From Gemmatimonadaceae bacterium (lineage in GTDB: Bacteria > Gemmatimonadota > Gemmatimonadetes > Gemmatimonadales > Gemmatimonadaceae), in contig JAUQWM010000056.1 of assembly GCA_030835125.1 (NCBI GenBank), forward strand, positions 1 to 52,182: a DNA stretch of 52,182 nucleotides. Direction: 5' to 3'. Positions within the stretch are counted from its first letter, which is position 1; every line of letters begins with the position of its first letter. The position numbers and the translations under genes are program-made. The notes beneath the pieces were generated by a model. It ran no database searches and had not been told where the DNA came from. It saw only the letters and a list, made by a program, of their open reading frames with translations. Shown one piece after another: positions 1 through 49,360 of the stretch.

Positions 1-2
1 GG

Positions 3-110
3 GCCATCTTCAAGTACATCGAGACCTGGTACAATCGTCAACGACGTCACTCCACGCTCGGGAACATCAGCCCCGCAGCATTCGAAGCCAAGTTGGAATC
101 GGCGGCATAA
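3..110 (+). CDS. IS3-family transposase (OrfB), C-terminal end, cut by window edge
   Basis: The first 36 codons of the window read as the end of an rve-type integrase domain and stop at TAA 108-110. The segment YIETWYNRQRRHSTLG followed by ISPAAFE is the hallmark C-terminus of IS3-group DDE transposases, just after the catalytic glutamate. The start and the rest of the element lie to the left of the window. A terminal-repeat-like sequence follows within ten bases. A decayed copy of the same end occurs at 42091-42241, so the element has been mobile in this genome. Confidence 0.85.
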   Translation, partial: AIFKYIETWYNRQRRHSTLGNISPAAFEAKLESAA

Positions 111-116
111 CAACCG

Positions 117-141
117 TGTCCACAAAACCGGGTCAAGCCCA
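117..141. repeat. Probable right terminal repeat of the IS3-type element
   Basis: The 25 bases starting TGTCCAC and ending CAAGCCCA directly follow the transposase stop. IS3-family ends often begin TGTCCAC and carry a CGGGTCA-like core. The same sequence, slightly diverged, recurs at 42217-42241 after the transposase relic there. The left end is outside the window, so the inverted pairing cannot be tested here. Confidence 0.6.
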
Positions 142-615
142 GCGACAGCACCCATGGAATGCCTTCGGCCAACGTCATTCAGTTCATTTCACTTCTGAAG
201 AGCCACCCCGACATCCAATGCCAAGGGGGGTCCCCCGTGACCTCCGTGTCCCCTGTGGTGAAAATGTTCTTGACCCACGAAAGCAATTCACCACAGGGGG
301 CACTGAGAACACAGAGAACAGCAACAGCACCCATGGAATGCCTTCAGCAACGGCATTCAGTCCTTTCACTTCAGAAGAGCAAGTCCGACATCCGATGCCA
401 AGGGGATCCCCCGTGACCTCCGTGTCCCCTGTGGTGAAAATGTTCTTGATCCACGAAAGCAATTCACCACCGGGAAGCTGAGAAAACAGGGAACGGCGAC
501 AGCACCCCGGAATGCCCGCAGTCACATCGGCCAAGGTCAATCCGCTTCTGAAAAGCCGTCCCGGCAACCAATGCCAGCGGCGACCTCGGTGTCCCCTGTG
601 GTTCCTGATCCGGGG
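141..615. repeat. Three tandem copies of a ~175-180 bp unit, third copy decayed
   Basis: Units begin with GCGACAGCACCC or GCAACAGCACCC plus ATGGAATGCC near 141, 320 and 494, a period of about 175-180 bp. Copies 1 and 2 are close to identical through the segment that contains TCCGTGTCCCCTGTGGTGAA and the following ATGTTCTTGA. Copy 3 is shortened and diverged, ending near 615. Short reading frames cross these units on both strands, but they follow the repeat rather than any codon constraint, so I do not call genes here. Bases 616-793 hold no feature I can recognise apart from the possible upstream starts of the next gene. Confidence 0.8.
241..310. repeat. Palindromic CACAGGGG element (dispersed family), best-preserved hairpin
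   Basis: CCCCTGTGGTGAA at 250-262 is a perfect inverted match of TTCACCACAGGGG at 287-299, a 13 bp stem around a 24-base spacer. Flanking CTCCGTGT and CACTGAG extend the symmetry imperfectly. The same arms recur at about 417-480 (right arm decayed), 588-604, 40471-40512, 42255-42345, 42391-42428, 44294-44335 and 49215-49360, all between genes. This is a REP/MITE-like family with no reading frame of its own. Confidence 0.75.
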
Positions 616-8644: not shown

Positions 8645-9035
8645 CGTGACGAAGCTGTTCTGGCGCATTGCCGACTCGATCTTCCTGCTCCTGTTCGCCT
8701 TCTCGGTGGTCGTGCAGTTGAACGACCCCGACCCGATCCCGTGGGTGTTGATCTACGGCGCGGCCGCGGTCGCCTGCGCGCTCACGCTCGCCGGCCGGCA
8801 GCGGTGGCTCTTCCCGGTGCTGGTGGGGATCATCGCGTTGATGTGGGCGGCGACGATCGCACCGCGCGTCGTCGGCCAGGTCCCGTTCATGGACATGTTC
8901 GCCGAGTTCGAGATGAAGGACATCGGCGTCGAGGAGTCGCGCGAGATGTACGGTCTCCTGCTCATTGGCGGGTGGATGGCGCTCCTCGGCCATCGCACGT
9001 TCTGGAGTTCGAGGAACTCCTTTCGAGACTCGTGA
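8634..9035 (+). CDS. TMEM220-like small membrane protein
   Basis: A 133-residue protein with four predicted membrane segments (about residues 13-30, 37-52, 57-74, 105-121). The segment VVQLNDPDPIPWVLIYG after the first helix is the signature of the TMEM220 family, found in bacteria and animals and of unknown function. The start ATG 8634 lies inside the end of the receptor gene. The last codons (FRDS stop) are encoded by a short-period repeat at 9026-9053, so the natural C-terminus may have been replaced. Confidence 0.8.
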   Translation: MAVDVTKLFWRIADSIFLLLFAFSVVVQLNDPDPIPWVLIYGAAAVACALTLAGRQRWLFPVLVGIIALMWAATIAPRVVGQVPFMDMFAEFEMKDIGVEESREMYGLLLIGGWMALLGHRTFWSSRNSFRDS

Positions 9036-9053
9036 CTCGTGATTCGTGACTCG
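9026..9053. repeat. Short-period repeat (GACTCGTGA)n
   Basis: Three imperfect 9 bp units, GACTCGTGA / CTCGTGATT / CGTGACTCG, spanning the stop codon of the TMEM220-like gene. A related GTGATTCG array is found at 12434-12470. It looks like slippage expansion at a gene border. Confidence 0.7.
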
Positions 9054-9088
9054 GCACCGCGGGGCGCGTAGGCAGCGAGCCGGGTCAC
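9046..9088. terminator. Candidate bidirectional terminator hairpin
   Basis: GTGACTCGGC (9046-9055) pairs with GCCGGGTCAC (9079-9088), ten pairs with one G-U, around a 23-base loop. It lies between convergent genes and overlaps the cupredoxin stop. There is no T-run, so an intrinsic terminator is uncertain. Confidence 0.35.
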
Positions 9089-9552: not shown

Positions 9553-12530
9553 CACGGCGTCCTGAACACGTTGGGCAACGTCCATCGCGCCGCCACCTTG
9601 TCGAACGACGGGCCGAGGCCGGCGGGGGCGGTGCGCGCCGCATCCACCAGGGCCGCGCGCTGTTCGGCGGTCGGCTGCGGCGCGCGCTCCTCGGGCCACC
9701 CGGTGGCGATGCCCTCGAGGAGGGCCGTGCCCAGCACCGGATGGGCACGCGGGATCGTGTTGATCAGCGTGACCACGGGGGCAAGGTCCGCCCTGGCGGC
9801 GTGCAGTCTCCCCAGCCGCTGCACGACCCGCTTCAACCCGTTGACCGTGATCGAGTCGGCGTTGGCGGGCACGCGCTGCAGCATCAGTTCGGCCAGGAAC
9901 GCGGGCCCGTGGCCCGCGGCCGCGATCGCGATCGCGTCCGGCATCCAGGGATCGCGGGCATTCTCGAACGACGCGAACAGTTCGCGGACCACGTTCGCCC
10001 CCCGGTCCGACGGCGGCAACTCGGAGAGGGCCAGCGTCGCCTCGAGGCGGACGTGCGGGTCGGCATCCGAGAGCAGGGCGCTCGATACCGTGTACTCCAC
10101 CGTCCACGGGGATCCCCGATCGGGCAGGATGCCTGACGCGAGGATGTCCGTCAGCAGTTGCGAGTCCCGCGGGAGGACCTGCAGGGCCGCGCGTCGCACC
10201 GAGGCCGCCGGGTGCCGGAGTGCGTTCCGTGCCGCCGTCATGGCTTCGGCACTCGACGACAGTGCCCCGAGCCCGTGCAAGGTCCACAGCGCGTGCAGCG
10301 CGCCCGGGTTGAGGCCGAGCGAGTCGACGGTGTGGTCACTGGCGAGGCGCACCAGCGCCGGGATGGCCCCGGTCGCTTTCCGCTCGACGAGCAGGCGCTG
10401 GGCCGTCTGGCGCCAGAACAGGTTGTCATCGGCCAGCGCCGAGACCAGTTGCTGTGGCGTCGCCGTGTCCAGCCGGCGCGGTACTGCCTGACGAGCGCTG
10501 TCGTACACGATGCGGTAGATGCGGCCATGCAGCCGGTCCCGGTTCGGCGTCTCGTACGCCTGGCCGGGCCCCGTCTGGCAACATCCCATCATGTTCCGCG
10601 GCGTGGGGTTGTGCTGCGCGACCAGCGTGTAGAAGTCGGAAACCCACACCGCCCCATCGGGTCCGATCTTCACCTGGACCGGCGCCACCCAGGCGTCCCT
10701 GGCCGACATGAAGCTCCAGCGATTCTTCGCGCGGAAGCCGCTGCCGTTCGGGAACAGGTCGAACTGGCCGATCACGTGCGCCGTCGGCTCGGCGACGAAC
10801 GCCGCACGGTTCCAGTATTCGCGGGGAAAGGCACGCGCCGTGTAGATCTCGTGCGCCGCGCCGGCGGTGTAGCGCCCGAACTGGTCCACCTGCAGGATGT
10901 CGATCTGCGGAAACACATCCAGCCGGTCGGCGATGTCCGGCAGCACCGGCTCGCGGTCGCCGATCGCCCGATAGTACCGGATGGGGATGTGGACGAAGTT
11001 GCTCGGCCGGCTGTTCGCCGTGGAGCCGAAGACGAAGCCCTCCTCGCTGAACGCCACTCCCCAGGTGTTGTTGCTCGTGCGCGCCACGTAGTCCAGTGAC
11101 GAGGCATCGGCGGGGAACCGGAAGTACCCCGCCCCGAACTGGCCCCGCTCGTACGTGCTCGAGCCGACCGTCCCGCGGAAGCCATTGTATCCCACCGAGC
11201 CCCAGACCTGGTTGTCGAACCCGTAGCGAAGGTTGCTGATCGCGCCGTGCGTGTCGGTGCGCGGCCATCCGCTGAACAGGATCTTCCGCTCATCGGCCTT
11301 GTCGTCGCCGTTTGTGTCCCGGAAGAACAGCATGTGCGGTGCCTGCCCGACGACGAGGCCTCCATTCGCGAGCGTGAGGCTTGTCGCCAGGTTGAGGCCC
11401 GTCGCGAAGACCTTCACCCGGTCCGCCCTCCCGTCGCGATTCGTGTCCTCGAGGATCAGGATGCGATCGTTGCCGGGCACCGAATCCGGCAGCACCGTGT
11501 TGGGATAGTCGTTCGTCTCGACGGCCCACATCCGCCCGCGCGCGTCCCACGTGAAATCGATGATGTTGCCGATCATCGGCTCGGTCGCGAACGGCTCGGC
11601 GCGGAAGTGGGGCCGCAACGTCATCATCCTGAGCGACTCGGTCGTGGGCAGCGCGTCCTGCGCGACCGTGACCGCCGTGTCGAGCACGTTCCACGGCGCG
11701 GGAGGCCGCTTGTAGGTCGGCAACGGCACCTCGAGCCTGACCTGCCGGGTCTCGGGGTCGCGTGCGACCTGCGTCAGTGCCCAGTCGCCGATGCTCCAGC
11801 GAATCCCCTGTCCGACGAGCTGCTGGAACCCGGCGTTCCCCCACGTGCGCTGGTCGTGTCCCCAGGCGGTGTAGAACACCCGGCCCTTGCCGTAGGTGCG
11901 GACCCAGGTCCACGGCTCGTCATGGCCGTTCTCGCGGCGCACCTCGAGCACGGTGCGGTTCACGGGGTTGTGCTTGGCATGGACGTAGGTCTCGTCCCAG
12001 CTCGTGATCGCCGGCACACCCGCGATCGCCGGATGCCCGCTGTCGACGCGGACCGCGCTGAACGTGCCGGTGCCGTGGCTCTTGAACGATGCGCCGACGA
12101 GCCGGATGAACTCCTCGGAGTTCTGGAACGATGCCGATGCGCAATGCAGCACCACCAGCCCGCCGCCGTCTCCCACGAAACGCAGCAGCGCGTTGAGCTG
12201 CGCCTCCCCCACGTTCATGTGGTTGTTGTAGAGCACCAGCGCCTGATAGCGATCGAGTTCCGTGTCGTTCAGGTCTTCCACCCGATCGGTGTAGAACAGG
12301 TCGATGCCGTTTCGGGCCAGTGCCGGGAGGAGCTGCTGTGCGCGTTGCGTGGGCCGGTGATGCCCGTTGTCGCCGAGGAAAAGAACCCGGAGGCGTTGGG
12401 GAGCCTGCTGGACCGTGGGCCCGGGGCTCGTGACCATGATGCGTGATTCGTGATTCGGGATTCGTGCCTCGGCAATGCTCGGGGCGAGGACGAGGGCAAG
12501 CAGGATCGCGGCGATCCGTTCCAGTTTCAC
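9552..12530 (-). CDS. ThuA domain + PVC-type dehydrogenase propeller + HEAT protein
   Basis: A 992-residue protein if started at GTG 12530, which begins a good signal peptide (KLERIAAILLALVLAPSIAEA). Domains in order: ThuA-like (type 1 glutamine-amidotransferase-fold) at ~40-270, with HCASASFQ and YTAWGHDQRTW; a PVC-type membrane-bound dehydrogenase beta-propeller at ~290-640 (ILEDTNRDGRADRV, RDTNGDDKADE, WVSDFY); and alpha-helical HEAT-like repeats from ~680 on. No CXXCH haem motif is present, although many relatives end in a cytochrome c domain. Related proteins in Planctomycetes and Gemmatimonadota are linked to sugar or polyol oxidation. There is no stop codon between this and the upstream MFS gene, so one 1497-residue chain is formally possible. 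Residues just after the signal peptide (RIPNHESRI) come from a short repeat. Confidence 0.8.
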   Translation of the reverse strand: MKLERIAAILLALVLAPSIAEARIPNHESRIMVTSPGPTVQQAPQRLRVLFLGDNGHHRPTQRAQQLLPALARNGIDLFYTDRVEDLNDTELDRYQALVLYNNHMNVGEAQLNALLRFVGDGGGLVVLHCASASFQNSEEFIRLVGASFKSHGTGTFSAVRVDSGHPAIAGVPAITSWDETYVHAKHNPVNRTVLEVRRENGHDEPWTWVRTYGKGRVFYTAWGHDQRTWGNAGFQQLVGQGIRWSIGDWALTQVARDPETRQVRLEVPLPTYKRPPAPWNVLDTAVTVAQDALPTTESLRMMTLRPHFRAEPFATEPMIGNIIDFTWDARGRMWAVETNDYPNTVLPDSVPGNDRILILEDTNRDGRADRVKVFATGLNLATSLTLANGGLVVGQAPHMLFFRDTNGDDKADERKILFSGWPRTDTHGAISNLRYGFDNQVWGSVGYNGFRGTVGSSTYERGQFGAGYFRFPADASSLDYVARTSNNTWGVAFSEEGFVFGSTANSRPSNFVHIPIRYYRAIGDREPVLPDIADRLDVFPQIDILQVDQFGRYTAGAAHEIYTARAFPREYWNRAAFVAEPTAHVIGQFDLFPNGSGFRAKNRWSFMSARDAWVAPVQVKIGPDGAVWVSDFYTLVAQHNPTPRNMMGCCQTGPGQAYETPNRDRLHGRIYRIVYDSARQAVPRRLDTATPQQLVSALADDNLFWRQTAQRLLVERKATGAIPALVRLASDHTVDSLGLNPGALHALWTLHGLGALSSSAEAMTAARNALRHPAASVRRAALQVLPRDSQLLTDILASGILPDRGSPWTVEYTVSSALLSDADPHVRLEATLALSELPPSDRGANVVRELFASFENARDPWMPDAIAIAAAGHGPAFLAELMLQRVPANADSITVNGLKRVVQRLGRLHAARADLAPVVTLINTIPRAHPVLGTALLEGIATGWPEERAPQPTAEQRAALVDAARTAPAGLGPSFDKVAARWTLPNVFRTP
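12434..12470. repeat. Short-period repeat (GTGATTCG)n inside a reading frame
   Basis: GCGTGATTCGTGATTCGGGA and a following ATTCGTGCCTCG form about four 8-9 bp units. Read on the minus strand they encode RIPNHESRI, placed directly after the predicted signal-peptidase site of the ThuA/PVC protein. The array is in frame and keeps the frame open. Confidence 0.7.
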
Positions 12531-36870: not shown

Positions 36871-36910
36871 CGGGAAAGGTCGCGGCTGGGGACGACATTC
36901 CATCACTGCA

Positions 36911-37004
36911 GGCATCGGGCATCAGGCATCAGGCATCGCACGAACAGGCATCAGGCATCGCACGAACAGGCATCAGGCATCAGGCATCAGGCATCAGGCA
37001 TCAC
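36911..37004. repeat. Heptamer array (GGCATCA)n with two 12-base interruptions
   Basis: About eleven GGCATCA or GGCATCG units, interrupted twice by CGCACGAACA. The array ends at ACACATTGTGATG. It fills the start of the 315-base gap 36871-37185; the remainder of that gap (37015-37185) is lower in GC and shows no reading frame or motif I recognise. Irregular units and lack of unique spacers rule out CRISPR. Confidence 0.85.
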
Positions 37005-37185
37005 ACATTGTGATGCAGCGCACAGTCTCGTCGATTGCTCGTGACGATTCGTTCAGTCAATGGCTGAGGTCGGCCCTCTGATGGCTCCTGCGAAGTCGAG
37101 GCTGGCTCAACGCGGCGCATCATTTTAGGTTGTCGTCGCCGCGCGCGTCGCGCGGCCATGTCGTCGCTGAAGGCTGTAGATGTAG

Positions 37186-40325: not shown

Positions 40326-40470
40326 CGCCCGGGTGCGCGGCTCAGGTGACGCCGCGGTGACGGCGAGTCACCACAGTGCACGTTGCACGGGCACCGTGGG
40401 TACCGCAGTGGATGCCGGACCCTCACCAGGTTCACCGCTCAACCGGCATTCATTGCGGGGCCCTCACACC

Positions 40471-40512
40471 CTGCACCACAGGGGTCACAGAGGACACAGG
40501 GAACGGCAACGA
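40471..40512. repeat. CACAGGGG element, single arm
   Basis: CTGCACCACAGGGGTCACAG followed by AGGACACAGGGAACGGCAAC matches one arm of the dispersed family (and of the first tandem units). It lies in the 304-base convergent gap 40326-40629; the rest of that gap holds the hairpin at 40544-40566 and no gene. Confidence 0.75.
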
Positions 40513-42090: not shown

Positions 42091-42241
42091 GCCGCCATTT
42101 TCCACTACATCGAGACGTGGTGCAATCCGCGACGGCGGCACTCCACGATTTGGTACATCAATCCCGCTGCCTACGAAGTTCAACTCCAGAAGGCCGCGAC
42201 GGTGCTGCTAACCACGTGTCCACCACATCGGGTCAGGCTCA
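42091..42241 (+). pseudogene. Decayed IS3-type transposase end with terminal repeat
   Basis: GCCATTTTCCACTACATCGA onward encodes AIFHYIETWCNPRRRHST, then INPAAYEVQLQKAA, a mutated version of the transposase C-terminus at the left edge of the window. The stop TAA (42209-42211) is now one base out of frame. A diverged terminal repeat follows at 42217-42241 (TGTCCACCACATCGGGTCAG...). The remainder of the element is missing. Confidence 0.8.
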
Positions 42242-42428
42242 GGTACGTCGGTGCAGTTCCCCGTGCTCTCTGTGATCCCTGTGGTGAACGCTTTGCTTTT
42301 CAAGTGCCAATGTGAGACTGCTCAACCACAGGGGTTACAGAGGAAAATCGTCCCGACAAACGGCTTCGCCTGGTCCGAACGGGTACGTCGGTGCAGTTCC
42401 CCGTGCTCTCTGTGATCCCTGTGGTGAA
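42242..42428. repeat. 47 bp direct repeat with CACAGGGG palindromes
   Basis: The 47 bases starting GGTACGTCGGTGCAGTTCCC and ending CTGTGGTGAA are identical at 42242-42288 and 42382-42428, 140 bases apart. The first copy pairs with CTCAACCACAGGGGTTACAG (42320-42339) to form an inverted repeat. A third, decayed arm (CTCTGCGATCCTCGTGGTGAA) is at 42470-42490. The gap continues to 42587 without a gene. Confidence 0.85.
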
Positions 42429-42587
42429 GGCTCTTCTTTTCAGGAGCAGGTCCCCGGCGTACCCGCACCCTCTGCGATCCTCGTGGTGAACAGGGTATCC
42501 TGCTCGGATCGCCGCCGTGGTCCAGCTTCTCCATCATGGGACACGGGAAAGACCCGGCTTGCAGTCTCCGTTCTCACGTCGTGGAGA

Positions 42588-49018: not shown

Positions 49019-49214
49019 GCTATGGTCGCTCCGACAGGTCCTGGGTCCGCATCGCAGGGCATTCCATCGCCCGGAATCGCTCGTCACGCCTCTCCGTGGC
49101 CGTCCCTAACCTAGCGCCGGTAACTCCCATAGGAACGGCGCAGGTCCGGCCTTCGGACCGATGCCGGCGCCGATCACGGTGCATGTCCAGAATGAGTCGG
49201 CGCGGACCAACTGC

Positions 49215-49360
49215 CTCAACCACAGGGGTCACAGGGGTCACAGAGTCCCTGGAAAACAGCCCCTCGGTCCCATCGTCCGTTGATCGAGTGCTCTTCACCT
49301 GACACACGGACACGCATTTGCCCTCCTCCGTGTCCCCTGTGACCCCTGTGGTGATAAGCT
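49215..49360. repeat. CACAGGGG inverted repeat (146 bp)
   Basis: CTCAACCACAGGGGTCACAG and GGGTCACAG (49215-49244) are matched on the opposite strand by CTCCGTGTCCCCTGTGACCC and CTGTGGTGATAAGC (49327-49360), about 28 paired bases around an 82-base spacer. The left arm carries two tandem 9 bp GGGGTCACA units. It fills most of the 432-base gap 49019-49450; I see nothing else there. Confidence 0.85.

Follow-up and report, generated by a model that had tools for sequence, protein, structure and literature searches.

Target preference for REP sequences is established among IS3-family insertion sequences. According to PMC1525189, this holds for IS1397 and ISKpn1 from Enterobacteriaceae and for ISPsy8 from Pseudomonas syringae. 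IS1397 and ISKpn1 insert into REP palindromic units and are reported there to be specific to particular REP or palindromic units. ISPsy8 generates a 3-bp duplication, and its insertions fall within REP clusters close to the symmetry axis; in five of five copies the REP is interrupted at an identical base (PMC1525189).

Here, we describe an element from a Gemmatimonadaceae bacterium that shares part of these properties. Like IS1397 and ISKpn1 it belongs to the IS3 family and enters REP-like palindromic units, and like ISPsy8 it produces a 3-bp duplication and inserts into a REP-like cluster near the symmetry axis. In contrast to the specificity reported for IS1397 and ISKpn1, it resides in two unrelated palindromes and in another phylum, and unlike ISPsy8 its position varies from copy to copy. 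A REP-specific IS of type 1 as defined by Tobes and Pareja has all copies in REPs, each at an identical position within one kind of REP. All four pieces in the own genome (4/4) do lie in REP-like repeats, which holds for only a minority of the relatives, but they occupy two unrelated palindromes at differing positions. REP-targeting IS3 elements are already known, and this case extends them to Gemmatimonadota; what is less usual is the presence of two unrelated kinds of palindrome in one genome.

The repeats resemble REP/BIME elements and REPINs in being short, dispersed extragenic palindromes that occur singly, in pairs or in arrays. In contrast to these, the arms of the CACAGGGG family are 9-base quasi-repeats with variable loops, and the Y1_Tnp (RAYT) gene that marks a REP/RAYT system was not found in the own genome (0 matches to PF01797 in a 99% complete genome; 5 of 14 control genomes were positive). 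The own genome thus provides no RAYT for its REP-like repeats.

We consider it highly probable that the transposase remnant at 42091 marks an IS3 insertion into a pre-existing REP-like array, that the two intact copies and two remnants of this element all lie in two unrelated dispersed extragenic palindromes, and that the element prefers, but does not strictly require, a site between the palindrome arms.

Four pieces of one IS3-family element

The window, which is the whole stretch of 52,182 nucleotides under analysis, represents the entire contig C37 of the genome (G000; 4.48 Mb, 73 contigs). Copies were sought genome-wide by DNA similarity to the IS (window 1-143 and the left end) and not to the repeats. 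Apart from weak chance matches, this search yielded four pieces, two intact copies and two remnants. The left part of the first intact copy starts at C9:15730 and runs out at the edge of that contig (G000:C9:15730-16034), and its right end lies at C37:1-141. The second one has its left end at C11:24706, again running to the contig end, and its right end at C51:1-141. Both left ends are identical at 301 of 305 bases. The window therefore starts inside a two-copy element, which explains the assembly break at this point. The transposase end at 3-141 is no lone piece but part of an intact copy cut by the contig edge. The third piece is the decayed right end at 42091-42241 of the window. The fourth consists of 54 bases of the left end (C59:144181-144234, 94% identical); it sits in a CACAGGGG array and its inner part is gone. 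Altogether, three pieces are located in CACAGGGG arrays and one between two copies of the unrelated palindrome CAATGGGGTCWGACCCCATTG.

The element is an IS3-family insertion sequence. For the own genome, the assignment is based on the OrfA N-terminus and the OrfB C-terminus, as the interior of both intact copies is unassembled. The OrfA N-terminus matches PF01527 (HTH_Tnp_1, E=5.1e-12) and also NCBIfam IS3, and the OrfB C-terminus matches Pfam rve_2 (E=9.9e-07) at window 3-107. A complete relative, L073, encodes OrfA plus OrfB (NF033516, IS3 family, E=2.3e-104), and with its help the combination expected for IS3, an OrfA with HTH_Tnp_1 and an OrfB with the rve DDE core, was recovered. The two reading frames of L073 overlap at a run of A, which is only suggestive of an orfA/orfB -1 frameshift. 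The element reads TGGAGTTGACCC.../...TCAAGCCCA at its ends, and its terminal inverted repeats start with TG and end with CA as in other IS3 elements (TGGAGTTGACCCGGTTTGATGGACAC and its partner TGGGCTTGACCCGGTTTTGTGGACAC, on C9/C11 and C37/C51). A target duplication in the 3-4 bp range of the family was observed as GCG at C9|C37 and as CAG at L073, while the C11|C51 copy shows AT only (2 bp). The remaining rve transposases of the genome, the only other rve matches, belong to two different elements (C16:152.8 kb and C71:25 kb), which lie near neither palindrome family.

Table 1. Features of the window that relate to the element and to the CACAGGGG repeats.
Feature	Position	Strand	Basis or detail
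Right end of intact IS3 copy (orfB C-terminus 3-110, terminal repeat 116-141), cut by contig edge	1..141	+	
Target duplication GCG, repeated before the left end on C9	142..144	.	
Array of ~176 bp CACAGGGG units hit by the IS	142..607	.	arms 231-264, 285-323, 407-440, 574-607
Single CACAGGGG arm, no adjoining IS end	40470..40509	+	
Decayed orfB C-terminus, second, older copy	42091..42216	+	genome search, translation
Decayed right terminal repeat, second copy	42216..42241	+	sequence
Array unit piece starting at the IS boundary, sibling 42382-42447	42242..42307	+	repeat family D4, 92%
CACAGGGG palindrome, 18-bp stem, arms 42320-42345 and 42397-42428	42320..42430	.	repeats, fold
CACAGGGG palindrome, no IS	49214..49357	.	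fold z=-4.76, 0/200 shuffles as good

The decayed copy confirmed what had been read from the letters of the window, namely that a mutated transposase C-terminus and terminal repeat recur 42 kb away and are directly followed by the palindrome. In a whole-genome search, positions 42094-42178 were 78% identical to 3-87 (E=1.2e-12); the decayed counterpart of the terminal repeat at 116-141 follows, and the CACAGGGG palindrome begins 16 bases on. The frame of the decayed orfB is open without a stop and reads AAIFHYIETWCNPRRRHSTIWYINPAAYEVQLQKAA, and its counterpart at 3-110 reads AIFKYIETWYNRQRRHSTLGNISPAAFEAKLESAA and then a stop. Only the last ~40 OrfB codons are kept, and no further transposase match upstream of 42091 was seen in the genome search, as if this old copy had later lost its left part. 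The array unit piece and its sibling (Table 1) form a 66-nt direct repeat that starts at the base after the terminal repeat, which places the element boundary within a repeat unit. An additional CACAGGGG arm is located at 42257-42288, and the 18-bp stem of the neighbouring palindrome folds with z=-2.81 (1 of 200 shuffles was as good).

Two families of dispersed palindromes

A CACAGGGG unit consists of two arms of 9-base quasi-repeats together with a loop, and the units form tandem arrays. The loop is common within one cluster and different between clusters. Three units of the window were folded as single-stranded DNA and gave better folds than shuffled sequences (z -2.4 to -4.8), including the segment 287-434 of the array at the contig start (z=-2.36, 5 of 200 shuffles as good). 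The strict arm pattern was detected in 18 of 395 genomes across the phylum, with a maximum of 109 in G073, and the reversed control occurred once in total. Rfam returned no match in the window. A text search of the literature library used here for strings such as ACAGAGGACACAGAGG, GGGGTCAGACCCC and CCACAGAGG gave no bacterial repeat paper among the matches listed. In two CACAGGGG clusters (L058, 550-569, and L064, 839-858) the loops hold a repeat, AGACCGGGTTGATGGGTGAG, which resembles the end of another mobile element. The window also contains tandem heptamer-type repeats (CAGGCAT, TGATTCG) at 36909-37009, 9033-9054 and 12437-12472, in the same style as the arms entered by some relatives of the IS.

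The second family, CAATGGGGTCWGACCCCATTG, is a perfect dispersed palindrome that is found singly or in pairs ~21-34 bases apart (for example C28:65694 and C45:197742; L265-L284). With up to one mismatch, 40 sites were counted in the genome, compared to 0 for the reversed control pattern. Both folded CAATGGGGTC doublets, which are made of two CAATGGGGTCWGACCCCATTG palindromes, reached z of about -9 against shuffles, again as single-stranded DNA. Contigs C72 (at its start) and C52 (at its end) also terminate at CAATGGGGTC pairs, so the assembly may be interrupted by this palindrome family too.

Target preference in the genome and among relatives

Together with 50-100 bases on each side, both repeat families account for 0.2-0.35% of the genome and for 1.6-2.7% of its noncoding part, with the noncoding share, estimated on 452 kb, set at 13.3%. 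The probability that all four pieces fall in the two families by chance within noncoding DNA is 7e-8 to 5e-7, and for the two intact copies (2/2) it is 3e-4 to 7e-4. These values make it unlikely that the element inserts anywhere and that its copies persist mostly in dispensable, palindrome-rich intergenic DNA. Insertions into useless intergenic repeats may, in favour of such a lack of targeting, simply survive better, and 4% of the intergenic control positions had a strong inverted repeat no more than 100 bases away.

The relatives bear on the same question from both sides. We collected 28 two-ended copies from Gemmatimonadota with an OrfB identity of ~52% or more, the own two included; one-ended copies on contigs and copies without definable ends were left out. 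A site was counted if an inverted repeat with a score >=13 straddled the insertion within 100 bases. Seven of the 28 copies qualified (own copy 2, L073, L239, L213, L232, L180 and L217) in comparison to 1.4% of 1464 intergenic control positions (P=8e-8), the controls being drawn from the own genome only with a custom gene caller. Own copy 1 joins at 130 bases, where its straddling inverted repeat, which has a longer loop, scores 16. The enrichment persisted without the own two copies and L073 (5/25, P=2e-5) and after adding four copies dropped by the cut-offs, none of which qualifies (L219, L243, L192 and L076; 7/32, P=2.3e-7). The other 21 copies, among them all nine of G014, showed no straddling palindrome of score >=13, a point in favour of untargeted insertion. 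The preference for palindromes across the relatives is real but partial.

Nor does it follow a single clade. Mapped on the OrfB tree, the palindrome label is dispersed, with 6 changes vs 5.6 in shuffles, and a clade of palindrome-users was not found. The palindromes themselves vary: the copy L073, which comes from another genus (G073), lies inside a CACAGAGGA arm with a CAG duplication and the opposite arm downstream, and the others comprise CACAGAGG arms at L239, ATCCCGAGCGGAGCGAGGGAT at L213 and arms of 7-base repeats at L232, L180 and L217. By eye, no sequence consensus was seen at the insertion points compared. Copies from other phyla are mostly without a palindrome, for example no tabulated Leeuwenhoekiella copy reached 13; one copy from Cupriavidus (L158) adjoins a palindrome.

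A related IS3 right end was observed within a CRISPR-like repeat, GTGTTCCCCGCGTGTGCGGGGATGACCCG (L212; G157:C11, 1306-1427 and neighbours). The 5' part of this element is replaced by another transposon, whose genes we take to be IS21-like.

The sequence-only reading had suggested, from its two associations, that the IS targets the CACAGGGG palindromes. Both associations are real and targeting of REP-like palindromes is supported by all four pieces, but the picture was incomplete, since three pieces lie in CACAGGGG repeats and the second intact copy is in a different palindrome. A copy away from CACAGGGG was to be looked for once all copies were collected: C11|C51 literally is one and rules out strict CACAGGGG specificity, yet it lies within another dispersed palindrome.

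The presence of one element in palindromes that are unrelated in sequence hints that shape or a bound protein could be recognized. The transposase complex may capture palindromic DNA in the course of the copy-out/paste-in transposition that is usual for IS3 elements; the captured DNA would be an extruded or single-stranded hairpin, or it would carry a bound host protein. It is a tentative and rather doubtful extension that this IS3 group finds its targets by DNA shape, guided by hairpins or cruciforms, between the arms of any palindrome, be it CACAGGGG, CAATGGGGTC doublets, ATCCCGAGCGGAGCGAGGGAT, heptamer arms or perhaps a CRISPR repeat. If true, such targeting would be unlike the one-sequence specificity reported for the known REP-targeting IS3 elements. 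The use of two unrelated palindromes rests on two intact copies and remains a lead. As nature supplies both occupied and unoccupied sites for one element in two unrelated palindrome families, recognition of sequence and recognition of shape are separable by experiment.

Filled and empty insertion sites

At C9|C37, the flanks of the first copy read ...GAGAACAGCG on the left and GCGACAGCACCC... on the right, with the 3-bp duplication GCG. Window 221-474 holds an intact sibling unit, and the site joined with one GCG aligns with it over ~255 bases. The alignment crosses the insertion point and has small gaps elsewhere, so the filled and the empty site are found one unit apart. The duplication and the match to the intact unit indicate that the IS inserted into a pre-existing palindrome and that the palindrome is not a derivative of the IS.

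These sites also speak against homologous recombination between IS copies or arrays as the process that brought an IS end beside the repeats. Rearrangement has happened, as seen from the C59 remnant without its inner part and the 42094 remnant without its left part, but GCG on both sides of C9|C37 and CAG on both sides of L073 are the expectation for direct insertion, and we regard recombination as very unlikely. Least credible of all, although IS ends and palindromes adjoin each other more than once, is the view, along the lines of the earlier proposal, that the palindrome is a MITE-like non-autonomous derivative of the IS or is carried along with it, since neither palindrome resembles the terminal repeats, the duplication stands between IS and palindrome, the joined site restores an intact unit whose sibling runs across the insertion point, 15 of 19 merged CACAGGGG clusters are without an IS end (the split C9/C37 array makes up two of the remaining four), and 38 of 40 CAATGGGGTC sites are likewise free, the two exceptions being the pair that flanks the C11|C51 copy.

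The second copy is located between the two palindromes of a CAATGGGGTC doublet. The joined spacing is 32 bp, compared to 34, 33, 23, 32 and 34 in intact doublets elsewhere; one more pair, which is imperfect and opens a contig, has 21. The two genes that flank this copy are neighbours in the sister species G082, with no IS and another palindromic repeat between them, which speaks for C11 and C51 being joined. The gap in G082 (L292; G082:C78, ~671-740) thus carries a different palindrome in place of the CAATGGGGTC doublet of the own genome, which suggests a turnover of palindromes at this position.
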